Source of the DNA: Anaerolineae bacterium
GTDB lineage: Bacteria > Chloroflexota > Anaerolineae > Anaerolineales > Villigracilaceae
Assembly: GCA_021324435.1 (NCBI GenBank)
Contig: JAJPIZ010000040.1
Location: 1 to 64,000 of the forward strand
DNA: 64,000 nt
Reading direction: 5' to 3'
The position numbers and the translations under genes are program-made. A model generated the notes under the pieces. The model saw only the letters and a list, made by a program, of their open reading frames with translations, ran no database searches and had not been told where the DNA came from. This document shows positions 5,014 through 54,696 of the stretch, in pieces. Position 1 is the first letter of the stretch; every line of letters begins with the position of its first letter.

Positions 5014-6005
5014 GGAGGAACTTGTTCACTGGAGGCCGGTTTCAGGTCCGATGAAGAAGCGTTCTGGGCCTGGACGAGGAGCGGGCGCGTGCCGAAGAAG
5101 GTCATCACCACCGCGCCGAATCCGATCAGACCAACCAGCACGCCAACCATCCAGCCGACGCAAGGCACGAGATTGACTGTATTGATAACAACCATCAAAA
5201 GGAATGTCCCAGCGCCTGCGGAAAGTACCGGCGCCCACGTTTGATGGATTGCTTTTGTAAAGCGGTCGCCGACTTCCATGCCCAGCGCCACCATGCCAAA
5301 AACCCACGCCAGCGCCAGAACAATGACTCCAACCAGCGCAACAGGAAGCAGGATGATCGTCACGCCCAGAATGAGCAAAGTGACGGGAGCAATGATTGTA
5401 GTTAACAATCCAATGCTACCGGATACAAAAGGTTGCGAGACTAATGCCTGCGCCACGCGGTCGAGTTGAGGGTGCAGGAACATTGTCAACAACATGGCAA
5501 GCGCGGCCAGGCCAATCGCCTGCAGAAATATGCTTCCAATTTGCCAAAGCGGATTGACGTTGATTTCAAAGTTTGGCGTCGGCGGCGCGGCCGGGTTGGG
5601 AATCGTGATGATAGGCGGGGGCATGTTGGTGACCACGTTGCCGCCAATCTCCGCGCCCTCGGCGCGTTGGAGCGAACCGCCAACCGTCACGACATCGCCA
5701 GCCACCGAAGAATCTGTGCCCATCGAAACCAATCCACCGATCACAACTGCATCCCCGGTGGCCTGCCCATCGAGTTTGAGACTCCCGCCGATCACAACAA
5801 TATTGCCGTTCACCTTGGCGGCTTTCTCGATCACGGTCTCGCCGCCGATCACCACCAGATCACCGTCGAGCGAATCTCCACTTTTCAATGTGAAGTTCTC
5901 GCCGATGATCACGCGTCCTTCGCTCAAACCATTCCACGCGTGCGCGGCGCGGACGGGCCAAAGCAAAACTGCCAACAGCAAAAGGATAATCATCCATTTT
6001 TTCAT
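5004..6005 (-). CDS. Polymer-forming (bactofilin-like) membrane protein
   Basis: The 333-residue product begins with a signal peptide (about 1-23, ending AAHA). Residues 30-130 hold repeated short strands with the VVIGG pattern (DLVVIGG, NIVVIGG, DAVVIGG, DVVTVGG), as in the right-handed beta-helix of bactofilins and 'polymer-forming cytoskeletal' proteins. A Pro-rich linker (about 129-145) leads to about four hydrophobic helices (155-310). It is the third gene after an ECF sigma factor and its anti-sigma factor, so it may be the target or sensor of that system. The ribosome site AAGGAG is clear. The C-terminal PPSP and stop come from a repeat element, so the native end may have been altered. 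Confidence 0.7.
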   Translation of the reverse strand: MKKWMIILLLLAVLLWPVRAAHAWNGLSEGRVIIGENFTLKSGDSLDGDLVVIGGETVIEKAAKVNGNIVVIGGSLKLDGQATGDAVVIGGLVSMGTDSSVAGDVVTVGGSLQRAEGAEIGGNVVTNMPPPIITIPNPAAPPTPNFEINVNPLWQIGSIFLQAIGLAALAMLLTMFLHPQLDRVAQALVSQPFVSGSIGLLTTIIAPVTLLILGVTIILLPVALVGVIVLALAWVFGMVALGMEVGDRFTKAIHQTWAPVLSAGAGTFLLMVVINTVNLVPCVGWMVGVLVGLIGFGAVVMTFFGTRPLLVQAQNASSSDLKPASSEQVPPSP

Positions 6006-6008
6006 TGT

Positions 6009-6533
6009 TCACACTCCTTGCGGCGTTCGGGTAAAGCGCCGAATCGAAAACATCCACAATATAGTCAACCCGCTGACCACGGATAACAAAACAATCCAAC
6101 CGGAAGGCGAGATGAAGTTGGGCACGACGCGCAAGAGCACCCAGCCGGCCTCACTCCATGCTTGAATAGATGTCAATATGAAAAGGAAATAGCCCACGAC
6201 CGCGGTGATCCATTCTGCGGGTGAGCGCATCATTTCCTGGACCAATGGCCCTGCCAGCCAATACAGGAGCGCCACCCCGCCGATGACCAGCACCAGCGAC
6301 CCCATCACCTGACGCCATCTCTGTTCGCGCCGACGTTGTATCAACCGCGCTTGAAACCGCTCTGTAAAGCCTGCGGCAGGCGCGGCTTTCTGCGTGGAGT
6401 GCAAAGCCAGATTCGACTCAGCGATGGCTGTGCATGAAGTGCAGACTTGCAAATGAGATTGCAATTCACGTTTTTGTTCAGGTGTCAGAGGCTGGTCTTG
6501 CAAGAGCCAGTCTTCAAAAGGCCGGTGATTCAT
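6009..6533 (-). CDS. Zinc-finger (ZAS-type) anti-sigma factor, membrane anchored
   Basis: The 174-residue protein starts at the ATG at 6533 (MNHRPFEDW), preceded by AAAGGAGG; it overlaps the sigma gene by 20 nt. Residues about 29-36 carry HLQVCTSC, the HxxxCxxC signature of zinc-binding anti-sigma domains. Two hydrophobic helices follow (about 80-100 and 112-135), and a third near the C-terminus. Known role of the family: sequestering the cognate ECF sigma factor at the membrane until a signal arrives. The partner is almost certainly the sigma factor directly upstream. Confidence 0.85.
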   Translation of the reverse strand: MNHRPFEDWLLQDQPLTPEQKRELQSHLQVCTSCTAIAESNLALHSTQKAAPAAGFTERFQARLIQRRREQRWRQVMGSLVLVIGGVALLYWLAGPLVQEMMRSPAEWITAVVGYFLFILTSIQAWSEAGWVLLRVVPNFISPSGWIVLLSVVSGLTILWMFSIRRFTRTPQGV

Positions 6534-12360: not shown

Positions 12361-12453
12361 TGGTACCTCTGTGTGACTTTAGACCGTGGGCAATGGGCGA
12401 TAAGTGATGATGGGCTTTTATGGTTTGGTCTATCGTCTATGGCCGTCTGCGAG

Positions 12454-12547
12454 CGGGAGTGGATGGGAGTCGAACCCACCGCGGCCCGCAACGCGACCCG
12501 CCACAGGTTTTGAAGACCAGGAAGCCCGCCGGGACTTAACCACTCCC
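12454..12547 (-). tRNA. selC: tRNA-Sec (anticodon TCA)
   Basis: The minus strand folds as a 94-nt selenocysteine tRNA. It has an 8-bp acceptor stem (GGGAGTGG / CCACTCCC) with discriminator G, a 5-bp T stem (GTGGG / CCCAT with TTCGACT loop), an extended variable arm (about 24 nt) and anticodon loop CTTCAAA, giving TCA (12511-12513). The 8+5 arrangement and anticodon are diagnostic. The anticodon stem has one T-T mismatch. No CCA is encoded. selA, selB or selD are not in this window. Confidence 0.93.
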
Positions 12548-16319: not shown

Positions 16320-17588
16320 ATGAAAATGTTCCGATCGAAATTCTTTACTTTAATCGCCGTCTTCGCGATTGCCGCTCAATTGCTGGCCGCTTGTGCCCCA
16401 GCGCCCTCAGCTCCAACACAGACGCCGACTATGGCACATCAACCATCGGGAAACACGCCATCTCCCGCGCCCTCCTCCATCGAATCCACCACTGGGATTG
16501 ATCCACTTGTCTTTCGACAGGAAGTCCGCAAACTTTGGGAGGATCATATTATTTGGACGCGTATTTACATCATGGATGTCGCGGCGGGCTTGCCTGAGGC
16601 AAATGCCACTGCTCAGCGTTTATTGCAAAATCAGGTTGATATTGGCAACGCAATCAAGCCATTCTATGGTGATCAGGCTGGCGAGCAATTGACGTCTTTG
16701 CTCAAAAACCACATCCTGACCGCCGCTGATCTTCTTGCGGCCGCCAAGGCTGGCGACAACGCTAAATTCGAGGATGCCAATAAACGCTGGTACGACAATG
16801 CCAACCAAATTGCTGACTTTCTGAACAAGGCCAACCCCAATAACTGGCCGCTGGCCGATATGCAATCCATGATGAAATCTCATCTCGACCTGACATTGGC
16901 AGAAGCTACTGCCCGCCTCAAAGGTGATTGGTCCGGTGATGTGACCGCGTACGATGAGGTCCACGATGAGATTCTCCAGATGGCTGATATGCTCGCCGAC
17001 GGAATCATCCAACAATTCCCGGATAAGTTCGCTTCGATGAATGCTTCTCAACAGAAAGTTGAACTCACTCTGGCAATGGACAAACTGTGGGAAGATCACA
17101 TTACATGGACACGCATCTACATCATCAGTGTCACCGCTGGTTTGCCGGATGCCGACACCGTGGCGAAACGCCTGTTGCAGAATCAGGTGGACATTGGCAA
17201 CGCCATCAAGCCATTTTATGGCGATCAGGCTGGTGAACAATTGACTTCTCTGCTCAACGATCACATTTTGACCGCCGCTGATCTTCTTGTCGCCGCCAAG
17301 TCCGGCGACAACGCTAAATTCGAGGATGCTAGCAAACGCTGGTACGACAATGCCAACCAAATTGCTGATTTCCTGAATAAAGCCAATCCCGATAACTGGC
17401 CGTTGAGCGACATGCAGTCCATGATGAAGTCGCATCTTGATCTTACGCTGGAGGAAGCAACTGCCCGACTCAAGGGAGATTGGTCAGGCGATATCGCGGC
17501 ATACGACAAAGTCCATGACGAGATTCTCCAGATGGCAAGCATGCTCACGGGAGGCATCATCATGCAGTTCCCGGATAAGTTCAAATAA
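16320..17588 (+). CDS. Lipoprotein of two tandem homologous helical domains
   Basis: The 422-residue protein starts at ATG 16320 (MKMFRSK) after AAAAGGAG. A lipoprotein signal ends in LAAC (Cys25), then a Pro/Ser/Thr linker (26-60). Two near-identical domains follow (about 65-237 and 247-422). Each has KLWEDHI-WTRIYI at its start, QNQVDIGNAIKPFYGDQAGE in the middle and QFPDKF at its end. The DNA copies are also very similar, so the duplication looks recent. Single-domain relatives occur in Firmicutes and are sometimes mislabelled acetylglutamate kinase; no function is established. The pattern suggests helical bundles outside the cell, perhaps ligand- or metal-binding through conserved Trp, His and Asp residues (inference). 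Confidence 0.8.
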   Translation: MKMFRSKFFTLIAVFAIAAQLLAACAPAPSAPTQTPTMAHQPSGNTPSPAPSSIESTTGIDPLVFRQEVRKLWEDHIIWTRIYIMDVAAGLPEANATAQRLLQNQVDIGNAIKPFYGDQAGEQLTSLLKNHILTAADLLAAAKAGDNAKFEDANKRWYDNANQIADFLNKANPNNWPLADMQSMMKSHLDLTLAEATARLKGDWSGDVTAYDEVHDEILQMADMLADGIIQQFPDKFASMNASQQKVELTLAMDKLWEDHITWTRIYIISVTAGLPDADTVAKRLLQNQVDIGNAIKPFYGDQAGEQLTSLLNDHILTAADLLVAAKSGDNAKFEDASKRWYDNANQIADFLNKANPDNWPLSDMQSMMKSHLDLTLEEATARLKGDWSGDIAAYDKVHDEILQMASMLTGGIIMQFPDKFK

Positions 17589-32313: not shown

Positions 32314-33312
32314 TTACACCAATGCCAATCCAACACCGATCATGGCGGCCATCAGGCCAATGAGCCAAAATCTCTGCACGACTTGAGTCTCGCTCCAACC
32401 CAGCAATTCGAAATGCAGATGGATGGGAGCCATTTTGAAAAAACGTTTGCCTTTCGTCCAGCGGAAGTACGCGATTTGAATCACAACGCTCAACGCTTCA
32501 CTGAGCGGAATGATGGCGATGACCGGCAGGACAACCCATTGACTTGTCATCAGCGCGACTACGGCCAGCGTGGAGCCAAGCGCCAGTGAGCCGGTATCGC
32601 CCATGATGAGTTCCGCGGGATGCACGTTGAACCATAAAAAACCGAACAGCGCGCCGGTCAGTGTGAAGCAGAAACGCGCCAGATACACTTGATGTTGATT
32701 CAAGGCGATCATGCCGTACGCGGCAAAAGCCGTCGCGGCGATCAAACCTGCAAGGCCGTCGAGTCCATCGGTAAAGTTGACTGCATTCGACATGCTGACG
32801 ATGATGAAGGCCGCGACGGGCACATACCACCAGCCTAATTCAAAGAAGCCTTTGATGCCGGGCACGAACATATCGGGCACGCCCAGCATGTATTTCAAAA
32901 CCCAGGCTGTGCCGAGAGCGAGAATCACCTGAAATAAAAACTTGGTGCGAGCGCGCATTCCCTCGCCTTTGCGTTTGCCGCGTATGCCTTCCCAGTCGTC
33001 CACCGCGCCGAGCACAGCATAACCTACCATCACGATCATCGGCACGAGCACCGAGCGCCCCACGCCGCTCTGCGTGAAACCGATCAACGCGACGGCATTC
33101 AGCAAACCTGTAAGCAATAAAACCGGCAGGATGAACATGACACCGCCCATGGTGGGCGTGCCCATTTTGACCGCGTGATGAGTCGGTTCCTCCACGCGGA
33201 TGATCTTTCCAATTCTGAAGTGGCGCAGAATGCGAAGAAGCGGTCCGCCCCAGATGACCGTCATCATAAACGCCAGCCCCGCCAGGCTCAATGCCAGAGC
33301 GACCTGTTTCAT
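32314..33312 (-). CDS. mraY: Phospho-N-acetylmuramoyl-pentapeptide transferase
   Basis: The 332-residue integral membrane enzyme has about ten helices. Key motifs: KMGTPTMGGVMFI (about 51-63), DDWEGIRGKRKGEG, NAVNFTDGLDGLAG (with the catalytic DGLDG) and GDTGSLALG, then the C-terminal PIHLHFELLGWSETQVVQRFW. It transfers phospho-MurNAc-pentapeptide to undecaprenyl phosphate to make lipid I. Its ATG overlaps the murF stop by four bases. Confidence 0.97.
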   Translation of the reverse strand: MKQVALALSLAGLAFMMTVIWGGPLLRILRHFRIGKIIRVEEPTHHAVKMGTPTMGGVMFILPVLLLTGLLNAVALIGFTQSGVGRSVLVPMIVMVGYAVLGAVDDWEGIRGKRKGEGMRARTKFLFQVILALGTAWVLKYMLGVPDMFVPGIKGFFELGWWYVPVAAFIIVSMSNAVNFTDGLDGLAGLIAATAFAAYGMIALNQHQVYLARFCFTLTGALFGFLWFNVHPAELIMGDTGSLALGSTLAVVALMTSQWVVLPVIAIIPLSEALSVVIQIAYFRWTKGKRFFKMAPIHLHFELLGWSETQVVQRFWLIGLMAAMIGVGLALV

Positions 33313-34373
33313 GAATGAACCTCCAATGTGGCAATGATGCGATCCATGCGCAGGCCGTGAGAGCCTTTGAGCAATGCGGTATCGCCGCTGGTCAGATTTT
33401 TCTGAAGCCAGTCGGTGACTGCCGCGCTATCTTCAAATTCAAAAATGCGGGACGGCTTCATTCCGGTACGGCGAGCCGCCTCAGCATAGATGTGGGCGCG
33501 TGGACCAAGCGTCACGAGTATATCCGCGACTTGCGCCGCGCGCAGTCCCACCATTTCATGTCCCTGCCTTTCGTATGGGCCGAGTTCGAGCATGTCGCCC
33601 AACACCGCGATCTTGCGTTTGCCTTCGAGTTCGTCCAACAAATTGATCGAAGCCAGCATTGATTCAGGTGAGGCGTTGTATGTATCATCCAACATCAGCG
33701 CGCCGGATTCAGATCGAACCGCGACCAATCGCAGTTGAGTGTGTCCCTGACTCAGGCCGTTCAAAATTTCCTGCCAATTCAATCCTTCGATCAAACCGAC
33801 CGCGGCGGCGCGTAACGCGGTCTCCACGGAATGTCGTCCGATCATGGGCACGCGGACGTGCAAAGTCTCATTTTTATAGTGCAGACGAAAGCGAATGCCG
33901 TCCAATCCGAGTCCTTCCACGTTATCAGCCCATAAGTCCGCTTCGTTGGAAAGCCCATAAAAGAAAACGCGCGCCTTGGTCTTCTCTTCCATTTTGCGCA
34001 CCCATGGATCATCGAAGTTCAGGATGGCCGTTCCCTCCGGCGCGGCAGGCAGGGCCTGCACGAGTTCAGATTTTCCAAGAAAAATATTTTCCTGTGAACC
34101 GGCACGCTCGGCATGAACCGTACCAATGTTGGTCACGACGCCGACTTGCGGCAGAGCGATGTCGCACAGAAAAGCAATTTCGCCGGGGACATAAAATCCC
34201 ATTTCGAGGACAGCCCGTTCATACCCTGACCCGAGGCGGAGAAGCGTTAAAGGAAGCCCGATCTCGTTGTTGAGGTTTCCCGGACTCCGCAGGGTGCGGT
34301 AGCGTTCGCTCAAGACTTGAGCCACCACTTCTTTGGTCGTGGACTTGCCTACACTGCCGGTGATGCCAATCAC
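33309..34373 (-). CDS. murF: MurF, central and C-terminal domains (downstream of an in-frame stop)
   Basis: From a GTG at 34373 this frame encodes 354 residues: ATP loop GITGSVGKSTTKE (3-15), AVLEMG, TNIGTVHAERAGS, NFDDPWV, LDDTYNASPESM and KGSHGLRMD, all typical of UDP-MurNAc-tripeptide--D-Ala-D-Ala ligase. The same frame continues upstream through 46 more sense codons to a TAA at 34515-34517, then into the N-terminal domain. The GTG is the only start-like codon in that interval and would begin right at the ATP-binding strand. So the gene is either split by a nonsense mutation or the TAA is a sequence error. Confidence 0.85.
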   Translation of the reverse strand: MIGITGSVGKSTTKEVVAQVLSERYRTLRSPGNLNNEIGLPLTLLRLGSGYERAVLEMGFYVPGEIAFLCDIALPQVGVVTNIGTVHAERAGSQENIFLGKSELVQALPAAPEGTAILNFDDPWVRKMEEKTKARVFFYGLSNEADLWADNVEGLGLDGIRFRLHYKNETLHVRVPMIGRHSVETALRAAAVGLIEGLNWQEILNGLSQGHTQLRLVAVRSESGALMLDDTYNASPESMLASINLLDELEGKRKIAVLGDMLELGPYERQGHEMVGLRAAQVADILVTLGPRAHIYAEAARRTGMKPSRIFEFEDSAAVTDWLQKNLTSGDTALLKGSHGLRMDRIIATLEVHS

Positions 34374-34514
34374 GCGCAGGTTCAGTCTGCGACGCCACCA
34401 GCGCGCGATCTGTTGCAGGGCCGCGGTGGTGTTCTCGACACGCAGACAGAGGGGAGGAGTGAGGTCAGGTTTGGATACAGCGGATAAACCGCCGCGCAGG
34501 TCGAGGGTCCGGAA

Positions 34515-34730
34515 TTAGGCGTCTACGTCGCGTTGAATTAAAGCAAAAGAAGCCCCGCGCTTGAACGCGTCGCCGAGGAAGTCATGCCCGTCCACGCGTT
34601 CGCCGGGAATCGCGACGAACAGCGAGCCGGGGATGACCTGCCGTGAGTCGATGGCCGCCTCGGTGATGACCGCGGCGGTGTCGAAACGATTATTGGTTAA
34701 CGCTTCGAGGACATCGGCAAGTGTGAGCAT
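34515..34730 (-). CDS. murF: MurF N-terminal domain fragment ending at an in-frame TAA
   Basis: 71 residues (MLTLADVLEAL ... RDVDA) with AAIDSRQVIPGSLFVAIPGERVDGHDFL, the UDP-binding domain of MurF. The ATG shares one base with the ftsI stop (TGATG), leaving no room for murE. After the TAA the frame goes straight on (FRTLDLRGG... CLRVENTTAALQQIA) into the rest of MurF; a single base change TAA to GAA would restore a 473-residue enzyme. Together with 33309-34373 it represents one gene. Confidence 0.8.
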   Translation of the reverse strand: MLTLADVLEALTNNRFDTAAVITEAAIDSRQVIPGSLFVAIPGERVDGHDFLGDAFKRGASFALIQRDVDA

Positions 34731-36478
34731 CAGTGTTGGGCAATTTGCATGCGGACGTTGTCGGGCGGAATGTTCAATAACACTACGGTTTTTTGAGCGA
34801 CTTCCTCAAAGACCGGCGCGGCTGTTTCGGAGCCCCAAATAGATGCGGATGGTTTTTCCAGCCAGACATAAATCATGAACTTTGGATCATCCACCGGTCC
34901 CCAGCCAATGAAGGATGCGTTGGTTACGCCGGCCTCGTAACCATAGTCGGTTGGGATTTGCGCGGTGCCGGTCTTGCCCGCGATGCGATAACCCGACACG
35001 AGCGCGTTCGATGATTCGTTTTCGAGCGAGACTGCAAGAATCTGGCTGAGGGTATGTGCGGTATCAGCCGAGATCGGCGAGCCTGCATATTGCGCGGGCA
35101 CGTTGTATTGGCGTCCATCGCGCACCATGGCGTACAACACATGCGGAGTTACCATACGCCCGTCATTCGCGACCGCCGAAGAAGCCATCATCAATTGGAT
35201 CGGCGTCACGGAAACACCCTGACCAAAGGCGTTGGTGGCGAGGTCAACGGGATACCAATCCGTGTCGCCCGGGACCTTGAGGCGGCCCGCCGCTTCGCCG
35301 GCCAAATCAACGCCTGTGAGATGACCCAGACCGAAACGATTCATGTACCCGTAAAACGTCTGCGCGCCCATTTGATTGGAAAGCCAGGCCATACAGATGT
35401 TGAGCGAATGCTGGAGACAACCCGTAATGTCTTGTTGTCCCCAGGCTTGATTGTCCCAGTTGCGAATCTTCCAGCCGCCGACCTCCACCTCACCGGTGTC
35501 AAGATAGGAACTTGTCGGTGTGGCCGCGCCGCTATCCAGTGCCGCGGCGACCGTGAGGACTTTGATAACGGAGCCTGGTTCGTACGGCATGGAAATGGCG
35601 CGATCAAATTCGCTGGCGTTCTGATAGACCGTGCCATAATTCCAGAATTGGTTCAAGTCCATGCGCGGGGAGGAGGCGAGCGCCAGAATTTCGCCCGTGC
35701 GCGGATCCATGACGACGATGGTTCCACTCTGTGCGCCATAGCGCGTCAGCGATTGATCGAGGATTTGTTCGACCGCGGCCTGCAGATCGCGGTTGATGGT
35801 CAATACGAGAGTCGTGCCGTTTGGCACGCGAGGAATATCCACGGCTTTGTTGGGATCGGTGGGAACCCACACTTGAATCGGATTCCCGGCCAACAACGTG
35901 TTGTATTTTTCTTCGACTCCGAAATACCCGCGGCCCTCGCGGTTGACAAAGCCCAGTAAATTGGATGCCAGCGAACCTTCGGGATAACTGCGTTGCGGAT
36001 GCGCTTTGAATTCCAGTCCCGCCAGCGCGCTGGTTTGACCCGGCGCGGTATTTTCGTCCGTGGTGAGTTTGAGTTGTTGCAATTGCGCGGCCTTGTCCGC
36101 GTCCACAAAATCAGCCAGCACTAGATATTCGATGCCGTCTGGAGGATTCATCATCTGATTGTAGAGATCATCGGGGTTCAATCCGAGTTGAACGCCGACT
36201 ACCAGCGCAATCGTGTGCTTGTCTTTGGCTTCTTTTAACTCTACGCCAACTTCATAAGAAGTTTTGTTCCCTGCCAACAGATGACCATTACGATCGTAAA
36301 TCTCGCCGCGCTCGGGATAAAACGTTTTAAGGACAGTCTGATAACCCGCCATTTGCTTGCGAAAGATGGCGGCCTCAGGGCTGTTCTGAATGCGGACGAT
36401 TTGCAAAATAATAGAAAGCCCAACAAAGCCCAATAGCCCGGCTAAAACCAGCGAACGCCAGGCATATTGTTGTCTCAT
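34730..36478 (-). CDS. ftsI: Class B penicillin-binding protein (FtsI/PBP2b-like transpeptidase)
   Basis: The 582-residue protein starts at the ATG at 36478 (MRQQYAWRSL), with GGAG seven bases before it and an ATGA overlap with the preceding gene. One N-terminal membrane helix (about 8-28), a PBP dimerisation domain (about 50-200), then the transpeptidase: active-site SVIK (303-306), SLN (358-360) and KTG (502-504). It cross-links septal peptidoglycan, partnered with FtsW. No C-terminal PASTA domains. Directly followed by murF with a one-base overlap. Confidence 0.95.
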   Translation of the reverse strand: MRQQYAWRSLVLAGLLGFVGLSIILQIVRIQNSPEAAIFRKQMAGYQTVLKTFYPERGEIYDRNGHLLAGNKTSYEVGVELKEAKDKHTIALVVGVQLGLNPDDLYNQMMNPPDGIEYLVLADFVDADKAAQLQQLKLTTDENTAPGQTSALAGLEFKAHPQRSYPEGSLASNLLGFVNREGRGYFGVEEKYNTLLAGNPIQVWVPTDPNKAVDIPRVPNGTTLVLTINRDLQAAVEQILDQSLTRYGAQSGTIVVMDPRTGEILALASSPRMDLNQFWNYGTVYQNASEFDRAISMPYEPGSVIKVLTVAAALDSGAATPTSSYLDTGEVEVGGWKIRNWDNQAWGQQDITGCLQHSLNICMAWLSNQMGAQTFYGYMNRFGLGHLTGVDLAGEAAGRLKVPGDTDWYPVDLATNAFGQGVSVTPIQLMMASSAVANDGRMVTPHVLYAMVRDGRQYNVPAQYAGSPISADTAHTLSQILAVSLENESSNALVSGYRIAGKTGTAQIPTDYGYEAGVTNASFIGWGPVDDPKFMIYVWLEKPSASIWGSETAAPVFEEVAQKTVVLLNIPPDNVRMQIAQH

Positions 36479-36966
36479 TGGGCGACTCCGATCAAAATGT
36501 TTGCGGAGGGAGCGCGCAGATGTTGATCGAGCCAATCAATCAGTGATTGAGTGTATTCAGGCGGAATGCTGGCTGCGCTCGGCGTCAGAGATGGGACAGA
36601 GGCCAGAATGCTTGGCTTGGGAGCCGAATAACCGGGAACGATGACATAATCCATCTGAGAAGAGTCGACCGGCAGGTAACCTAAAGTCTGCGCGCGTTGT
36701 TCCATCACACTGCTGGAAGTCAACTCGGCCAGCTTGGTCTGCAGGTCCGCGCTGTTGTGTTGGATGGCGATCATCTCGGCGCTCATATCCTGAATGGATC
36801 GGCCATAGATGGCGGCTTGCGCGGTTACATCCAGGTAAAGAGCGGCAACCATGGCGAGTCCCAGCACGCCCAGCAGGAAAGCGCCGATCCACTGGCGCTG
36901 AATTCTCCATGGCGCTTGCCGGTACGCATGAACGAAATAATTTACGGTGTAGTTTACGTTTTGCAT
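36475..36966 (-). CDS. FtsL-like bitopic division protein
   Basis: The 163-residue protein starts near the ATG at 36966 (MQNVNYTVNYF). It has a basic cytoplasmic part, one membrane helix (about 27-46), then a helical, likely coiled-coil segment (about 48-90: IYGRSIQDMSAEMIAIQ, DLQTKLAELTS), and a Pro/Ser-rich tail. Size, topology and position between rsmH and ftsI match FtsL, whose sequence is poorly conserved. The call rests on position and topology rather than sequence identity. The start region includes a short repeat (gaagtgagaagtg). Confidence 0.65.
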   Translation of the reverse strand: MQNVNYTVNYFVHAYRQAPWRIQRQWIGAFLLGVLGLAMVAALYLDVTAQAAIYGRSIQDMSAEMIAIQHNSADLQTKLAELTSSSVMEQRAQTLGYLPVDSSQMDYVIVPGYSAPKPSILASVPSLTPSAASIPPEYTQSLIDWLDQHLRAPSANILIGVAQ

Positions 36967-36967
36967 A

Positions 36968-37903
36968 TCACTTCTCACTTCTTATTTCTAGCTTCTCTGC
37001 GACTCGTAACTTTGCACTGCGCGCCCGAGGGTTTTGTTTGATTTCATCTTCATCGGGCGTGATGGGTTTGCGATTGACTTCTTTCAGCACAGCCTTGCGT
37101 TCGACTTCATAAATCTTTTCATACGGCGGATTGATCTGATCTTTGCTCTCACGACGAAAAAACTCTTTGACGATGCGATCCTCCAGCGAGTGAAAGGAGA
37201 TCACTGCCAGCCTCCCGCCGGACCTGAGAGCGGCTACCGCGTTCGGAAGCGCGCGCTCCAAGACTGACAGTTCATCATTGACCGCGATGCGTAACGCCTG
37301 AAACGTCCGTGTGGCGGGATGAACGCGGCTGTGTCGCGGGTAGGCCCGTTTCACGATGTCGGCCAGTTGTTTCGTCGTTGTGATCGGCCTGGCTTGGACG
37401 ATCATCTTCGCGATCTTTCTGGCGTGTGGCTCTTCACCATACTTGAAGAGCAGGTCCGCCAACTCGGCTTCGGGCGTGGTGTTTACCCATTGCGCGGCGG
37501 TCAGCCCGAGGTCCGGATTGAAGCGCATGTCCAGCGGCGCATCGGTTTGGAAGGAGAAGCCGCGCTGGGGCGTATCCAATTGCATCGAAGAGACTCCCAA
37601 GTCCAACACGATTCCATCCACCGAGTCCCAGCCGAGGCTGTGCATCACATCCAGCAGGGAGTCGTAGGAGGCCTGGACCAGAACGGCGCGCTCCCCGTAA
37701 GGAGCCAAGTTCTCACGGGCAAGCGTCAACGCTTGAGGGTCGAGATCGAGACCGAGCAGGCGTCCATCTGGCGCGCAGGCCTCCAAAACTCCGCGGGCGT
37801 GGCCGCCCGCTCCAAGTGTTCCATCAATGTAGCGGCCTGAACGTTTTGGCTGTAACGCGTGTATAATCTCTTTGTAAAGTACAGGCTTGTGCGGCGTGTT
37901 CAT
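36968..37903 (-). CDS. rsmH: 16S rRNA (cytosine1402-N4)-methyltransferase
   Basis: The 311-residue protein has HKPVLYKEIIHAL at the start, SAM-binding DGTLGAGGHARGVLE (about 23-37), DLGVSSMQLD, RGFSFQTDAPLDMR and the late motifs HPATRTFQALRIAVNDEL and ISFHSLEDRIVKEFF. It methylates C1402 of 16S rRNA. It is the second gene of the dcw cluster. The C-terminal residues EIRSEK are encoded by the short repeat agaaataagaagtgagaag, so the end may be repeat-derived. Confidence 0.96.
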   Translation of the reverse strand: MNTPHKPVLYKEIIHALQPKRSGRYIDGTLGAGGHARGVLEACAPDGRLLGLDLDPQALTLARENLAPYGERAVLVQASYDSLLDVMHSLGWDSVDGIVLDLGVSSMQLDTPQRGFSFQTDAPLDMRFNPDLGLTAAQWVNTTPEAELADLLFKYGEEPHARKIAKMIVQARPITTTKQLADIVKRAYPRHSRVHPATRTFQALRIAVNDELSVLERALPNAVAALRSGGRLAVISFHSLEDRIVKEFFRRESKDQINPPYEKIYEVERKAVLKEVNRKPITPDEDEIKQNPRARSAKLRVAEKLEIRSEK

Positions 37904-53875: not shown

Positions 53876-54696
53876 ACCGCCGCATTCTGCTCAATACTTT
53901 GTTCTATATAATCTTGATCGCATTCGCGATTGTTTTTCTTCTGCCCATTTACATGATGTTGCTGACCGGCATCAAGCCTCTAAACGAAGTGGACTTGAAG
54001 ACGATGTGGAATCTGCCTGAAAACGGAATTCACTTTGATAATTTTATAGCCGGTTATAAACAACTCGCGCCGAACTTGACCAATAGTCTTGTCATGGTGA
54101 TTCCCGAGGCCATTCTCTCTTCTCTACTCGGCTCGCTGAACGGTTATCTGCTTTCCAAATGGAAGTTTCGCGGCTCGAATTTGATCTTCAGTTTGGTGCT
54201 GTTCGGAATGTTCATTCCCTACCAAAGCATTCTGATTCCGCTGGTGAGATTCATGCAGTTCATCAAACTGTACGGAGATATTCCGGGCCTGGTGTTGGTG
54301 CACATCATTTACGGTATCCCAATCACAACCCTGATCTTTCGCAATTATTATGCAGGCATTGGAACGGAAATCCTCGAGGCGGGGCGCATTGACGGGGCCA
54401 GCCTGTTGGGACTCTATCGTTACATCATTTTTCCGCTCTCCGCCCCGAGTTTTGCCGTGGTCATCATATGGCAATTTACGCAAGCCTGGAATGAATTTCT
54501 GTTCGCGATCATCCTCACCAATCAGTCTCACTGGCCTGTCACGGTGGCGTTGAATAATCTGGCGGGCAGTCAGCTTGTGCAATGGAATGTGTTGATGGCC
54601 GCCACGTTGCTGGCCGCGCTTCCAACATTGTTGGTTTACATTTTCCTGGGGCGCTTCTTCCTGCGCGGCTTGATGGCCGGCGCGCTCAAAGGATGA
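53872..54696 (+). CDS. Sugar ABC transporter permease (MalG/UgpE-like)
   Basis: The 274-residue permease starts at a GTG at 53872 (MNRRILLNTL) in a GTGA overlap with the upstream stop, with GGAGGCGGAAC before it. Six helices and the EAA loop TEILEAGRIDGASLLGLYRYIIFPLSAP (about 165-192). The pair of permeases fits the CUT1 sugar-uptake class. A terminator hairpin follows. Confidence 0.93.
   Translation: MNRRILLNTLFYIILIAFAIVFLLPIYMMLLTGIKPLNEVDLKTMWNLPENGIHFDNFIAGYKQLAPNLTNSLVMVIPEAILSSLLGSLNGYLLSKWKFRGSNLIFSLVLFGMFIPYQSILIPLVRFMQFIKLYGDIPGLVLVHIIYGIPITTLIFRNYYAGIGTEILEAGRIDGASLLGLYRYIIFPLSAPSFAVVIIWQFTQAWNEFLFAIILTNQSHWPVTVALNNLAGSQLVQWNVLMAATLLAALPTLLVYIFLGRFFLRGLMAGALKG

Follow-up and report, generated by a model that had tools for sequence, protein, structure and literature searches.

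A lone in-frame TAA in the single-copy murF of an Anaerolineae draft genome is most likely an artefact of the draft

The only murF gene found in the assembly of an Anaerolineae bacterium (GCA_021324435.1) lies on the minus strand of contig JAJPIZ010000040.1, at 33309–34730 of the window, the stretch of 64,000 nucleotides that was analysed, and is interrupted by one in-frame TAA at codon 72 (34517–34515). Taken at face value, this would be a wall-making bacterium living with a broken essential ligase, and a stop that was both real and fixed would indicate a split or recoded MurF. The stop is most likely a draft artefact and not new biology. With a probability of roughly 70%, the TAA is a single-base error or a minority allele in the draft consensus, and the organism's murF is ordinary, intact and present in a single copy; this reading is preferred because the remainder of murF shows signs of maintenance and the gene is intact in close relatives. 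The likely lesson is that when a draft shows one stop inside an essential gene of which it has a single copy, the reads need inspection before the stop is interpreted.

The murF reading frame

The frame comprises 474 codons including its terminal TGA and is open but for codon 72, where the read-through translation runs from ALIQRDVDA across the stop into FRTLDLRGG. The original prediction had described a frame broken by a single TAA with family sequence on both sides, and both the translation and the matches to MurF models bear this out. Against TIGR01143, whose cut-off is 288.6 bits, the read-through frame scores 397.3 bits; the search flagged one TAA in it, and the Pfam domains Mur_ligase, Mur_ligase_M and Mur_ligase_C are all found. 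The 71-codon piece ahead of the stop (34518–34730, minus strand), which covers most of domain 1 of MurF (Mur_ligase, PF01225), and the 354-residue open reading frame behind it (33309–34373, minus strand) each match MurF models. The latter reaches 311.4 bits against TIGR01143 by itself, above the same cut-off of 288.6; it starts at a GTG and holds the middle and C-terminal domains without a match to Mur_ligase. In the DNA as assembled, the three-domain Mur ligase chain is therefore not uninterrupted, as the TAA cuts its first domain. The frame is not open by chance, because the same 1422-base frame is intact in the congeners G002, G004 and G005.

The gene resembles known MurF (TIGR01143) in sequence, domain order, P-loop and position between a penicillin-binding protein (PBP) gene and mraY, and differs from it in the internal TAA. 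The FtsI/SpoVD-like PBP gene upstream (34730–36535, minus strand) ends in a TGA that overlaps the murF ATG, and mraY downstream (32314–33312, minus strand) begins with an ATG that overlaps the murF TGA in the sequence ATGA.

Codon 72 in related genomes

The murF genes of G002, G004 and G005, three of the five congeners, are intact, have the same length of 1422 bases as the window gene, are 77–78% identical to it in DNA and carry TCT (serine) at the position of codon 72. A genome scan gave 319 relatives; in the best 80 of them, which include two of these three congeners, the site is serine in 60 (TCT in 31, TCC in 16, TCA in 8 and TCG in 5), another residue in 15 and a gap in 5; none of the 80 has a stop there. 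The gaps include locus L085, which has Ns, an upstream frame change and out-of-frame stops elsewhere, and locus L129, whose contig ends before the site. A separate codon comparison, the one with the three intact congeners, omits loci L005, L029 and L030, which Ns, an interruption or a match to a gene other than murF made unreadable. GAA, which the original prediction had proposed as the codon that would restore the frame, is found in no member of the set of 80, in which the site is typically serine. The sole serine codon in this set that lies one base from TAA is TCA; TCT is two bases away.

A family-model search of 298 genomes gave no stop among the best matches listed other than that of the window, although interrupted genes get lower scores and could be missing from such a list. 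The murF of two further congeners is interrupted in other ways, in G003 (contig C229, 9618–10425) by a break between two matched pieces and in G001 (contig C198) by Ns with a frame change (loci L005 and L085). Both interruptions look like draft-assembly faults, and the G003 break lies elsewhere in the gene than codon 72. A convincing murF match is absent from the drafts G017 and G024. The window murF also contains an ENIFLGK cluster that differs from the congeners yet is common to other relatives.

Constraint on the two halves of the gene

Pairwise dN/dS over the whole of murF is 0.068, 0.081 and 0.090 for pairs that include the window gene and 0.054, 0.058 and 0.077 for pairs of intact genes, values that come from three of the five congeners, with small counts and dS near saturation. 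The window values are thus slightly above those of the intact pairs and far below 1. By segment, window and intact pairs give 0.094–0.143 and 0.071–0.133 ahead of the stop, 0.108–0.284 and 0.115–0.222 over codons 73–119, and 0.052–0.071 and 0.041–0.054 after codon 119. Among 41 relatives chosen from the 75 readable ones of the best 80, 146 murF columns are invariant (11 ahead of the stop, 9 between the stop and the GTG, and 126 after it), and the window gene deviates at none of them. The maintained columns and low dN/dS speak against an old lesion, but not against a recent one. A decayed pseudogene was rejected on similar grounds, as the frame holds no further stop and dN/dS shows no clear relaxation, in a test that is blind to a very recent lesion.

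Copy number

The assembly comprises 3.11 Mb in 51 contigs and is estimated to be 97.34% complete. In the search with TIGR01143, one murF scores over the cut-off in the whole of it, the window copy, and the next-best match, on contig C28, is murE. A second copy elsewhere, raised in the original prediction, was not found in this 97.34% complete assembly, in which the family model and the 71-residue piece returned murE, murD, murC and weak hits; the piece on its own retrieved itself, the N terminus of murE and two insignificant hits. Each of the congeners G002 (99% complete) and G005 (97%) gives a single full-length match to murF; the second family-model match in each is probably murE, as in the window genome. 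A plasmid-borne copy was sought and gave two short Streptomyces hits but no full copy, and no viral contig matched.

Restart sites and predicted structure

No in-frame ATG, GTG or TTG occurs in the 47 codons after the stop (codons 73–119; 34374–34514, minus strand). The first is the GTG at 34373, codon 120; the original prediction had named this start correctly and had put the loss at 46 residues, one fewer than the 47 codons counted here. The nearest conceivable restart is an in-frame CTG at codon 78 (34497–34499, minus strand), with a best Shine–Dalgarno match of 3/6, and the match is at most 4/6 at all nine restart candidates listed.

The structural model computed for the read-through MurF has a mean pLDDT of 86.0 and places codon 72 in a loop between strands at residues 62–65 and 75–77. 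The 47 codons that follow the stop encode a variable loop and the last strand (residues 94–97) and helix (residues 101–115) of domain 1, and codon 120 lies within the strand 119–124 that leads to the P-loop. According to the model, a product started at the GTG would be without the whole first domain, including strand 94–97 and helix 101–115. In an alignment with the structures of MurF from Escherichia coli (1gg4) and Pseudomonas aeruginosa (4cvk), most of the stretch that follows codon 72 is an insertion, and the window loop is longer than that of either. No report of a split or read-through bacterial MurF was found among the literature matches listed, at the level of titles and the openings of abstracts.

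Stop codons and their decoding

Among 51 open reading frames picked from the window's list, which are not all confirmed genes, 17 end in TAA, 25 in TGA and 9 in TAG; mraY is one of those ending in TAA. Both release factor genes, prfA and prfB, are present in the genome. None of the 46 Rfam tRNA matches, all of which were read, has a UUA anticodon (genome 97% complete).

In the same genome, prfB (contig C3, 5175–6206, locus L230) has one in-frame TGA, presumably the site of the known frameshift by which release factor 2 regulates its own synthesis. That this TGA was flagged indicates that the search does detect internal stops. The murF stop resembles programmed recoding of the prfB kind in lying inside a conserved gene, but differs in that it is shared by none of the 80 best relatives (5 of them gaps) and in that no tRNA reading UAA was found.

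A tRNA-Sec gene with a TCA anticodon (ARAGORN) is located at 12453–12547 of the window on the minus strand, and a selB match over the cut-off at 16625–18484 of contig C44, so that selenocysteine is probably used by this organism. SelB and tRNA-Sec decode UGA, not UAA.

Sequence quality of the draft

Open reading frames of the congeners were compared with the window (G004, 35 genes and 12,802 aligned residues; G005, 22 genes; G002, 28 genes), and a stop was counted if the gene had at least 50% identity over at least 80 aligned residues and the 25 residues on each side of the stop were at least 40% identical. Inside the window genes compared with the three congeners, the murF TAA alone passed this filter, and in contig C28 (18 genes, 8,319 residues) no stop passed, so errors appear to be infrequent here, and a generally poor assembly is unsupported by the scan of window and C28 genes. 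Two further stops also passed but were dismissed: one at 34889 (G002 on the window) lies in the upstream extension of a long G002 reading frame, outside murF, and one at 54449 in G004 coordinates lies just ahead of the frame of the G004 gene. The filter removed two stops ahead of the PBP start in the G005 comparison, several in upstream extensions, and three within a single gene of C28, the last of which came close to passing, with 36% identity on its left and 92% on its right. The reverse comparison gave one frame change, in a C28 open reading frame compared with G005.

A comparable lesion was observed in the draft of a relative, G009, whose murD (5056–6426 of locus L108, record VGNF01000063.1, which equals contig C63 of G009 in length) has a lone in-frame TAG before the motif GVPHRLE and apart from it aligns over its full length with the window murD at 65% identity. 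Assembly errors are described as a common cause of false internal stops in isolate genomes (PMC11017572, a study that does not assess metagenome-assembled ones). The window gene shares with the spurious-stop pseudogenes described there an isolated internal stop, an otherwise conserved gene and a draft genome; it differs in that those genomes are from isolates and in that the window's compared genes show no excess of stops.

Interpretation of the stop

The original prediction's option of an error, extended to a minority allele, is the best fit. The genome is a draft, probably a metagenome-assembled one, and the most economical origin of the TAA would be a serine TCA in the variable loop of domain 1 with one base changed. 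The species would formerly have had TCA at codon 72, and the reads or the population presumably carry an intact codon; a minority allele would be a dead or mixed-strain variant caught in the consensus. In support of such a fault, drafts of relatives show similar trouble in wall genes (murD of G009, and G003, G001, G017 and G024). Three points weigh on the other side: the sampled genes are otherwise clean, so that the fault would have to be a single miscall or minority allele and not part of an error-ridden draft; TCT, the commonest codon among the relatives and that of all three intact congeners, is two bases from TAA; and dN/dS of the window pairs is slightly raised.

A true and very recent nonsense mutation, lethal or nearly so and sustained by slight readthrough or in a declining clone, would leave identical traces; the clean contig speaks for it, and so does the undecayed remainder of murF, which is expected of such an event. 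It is nevertheless unlikely, with no second murF found and the gene described as essential in Staphylococcus aureus (PMC9603463). Essentiality is taken to hold in the window organism as well, and a lethal allele could scarcely be expected to end up as the consensus. The start–stop overlaps of the PBP gene, murF and mraY moreover suggest translational coupling, so that mraY, too, should suffer from the stop. That an intact second copy is hidden in the unassembled part of the genome seems very improbable: 51 contigs at 97.34% completeness leave some room for one, but G002 and G005 show a single full-length match each, and the stop-bearing copy shows no clear relaxation.

A naturally split MurF, in which the 71-residue piece and a C-terminal piece reinitiated at CTG 78 or GTG 120 associate into a working enzyme, draws some appeal from the position of the stop in a modelled loop, at the edge of an insertion missing from 4cvk and 1gg4, where a cut could be tolerated. 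This proposal, also among those of the original prediction, is judged improbable: the 47 codons without a conventional start, the poor Shine–Dalgarno matches at the nine candidates and the loss of strand 94–97 and helix 101–115 from the GTG product all stand against it, as does the lack of a stop at the site in the 80 relatives (5 gaps), and an evolved split is hard to square with a frame that is unbroken apart from one altered codon. Its specific form, with the cut in a domain 1 loop missing from E. coli and Pseudomonas, reinitiation at CTG 78 and two chains assembling into an active enzyme, is decidedly improbable. Readthrough or reassignment of UAA in this organism is scarcely credible; the frame does continue fully conserved past the stop, but TAA ends 17 of the 51 picked reading frames, including mraY, both release factors are encoded, no UUA-anticodon tRNA appears among the 46 matches, and the window and C28 genes that were compared show no further in-frame TAA between conserved flanks.

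The surrounding cell-wall gene cluster

The cluster around murF runs in the order mraZ, rsmH, a 167-residue open reading frame, the FtsI/SpoVD-like PBP gene, murF, mraY, murD, an ftsW-type gene and murG, and continues with a 175-residue open reading frame, murC, murB, the D-Ala-D-Ala ligase gene, a 322-residue open reading frame and ftsA; the three reading frames given by length are unnamed. The presence in the genome of murE, mraY, murD, murG, murC, murB and D-Ala-D-Ala ligase indicates that the wall pathway is kept. The 167-residue frame (36475–36978, minus strand), between rsmH and the PBP gene, matches no NCBIfam or Pfam family under the limits applied; it is conserved at 67% identity in G002 and G004 and occupies the usual position of ftsL.
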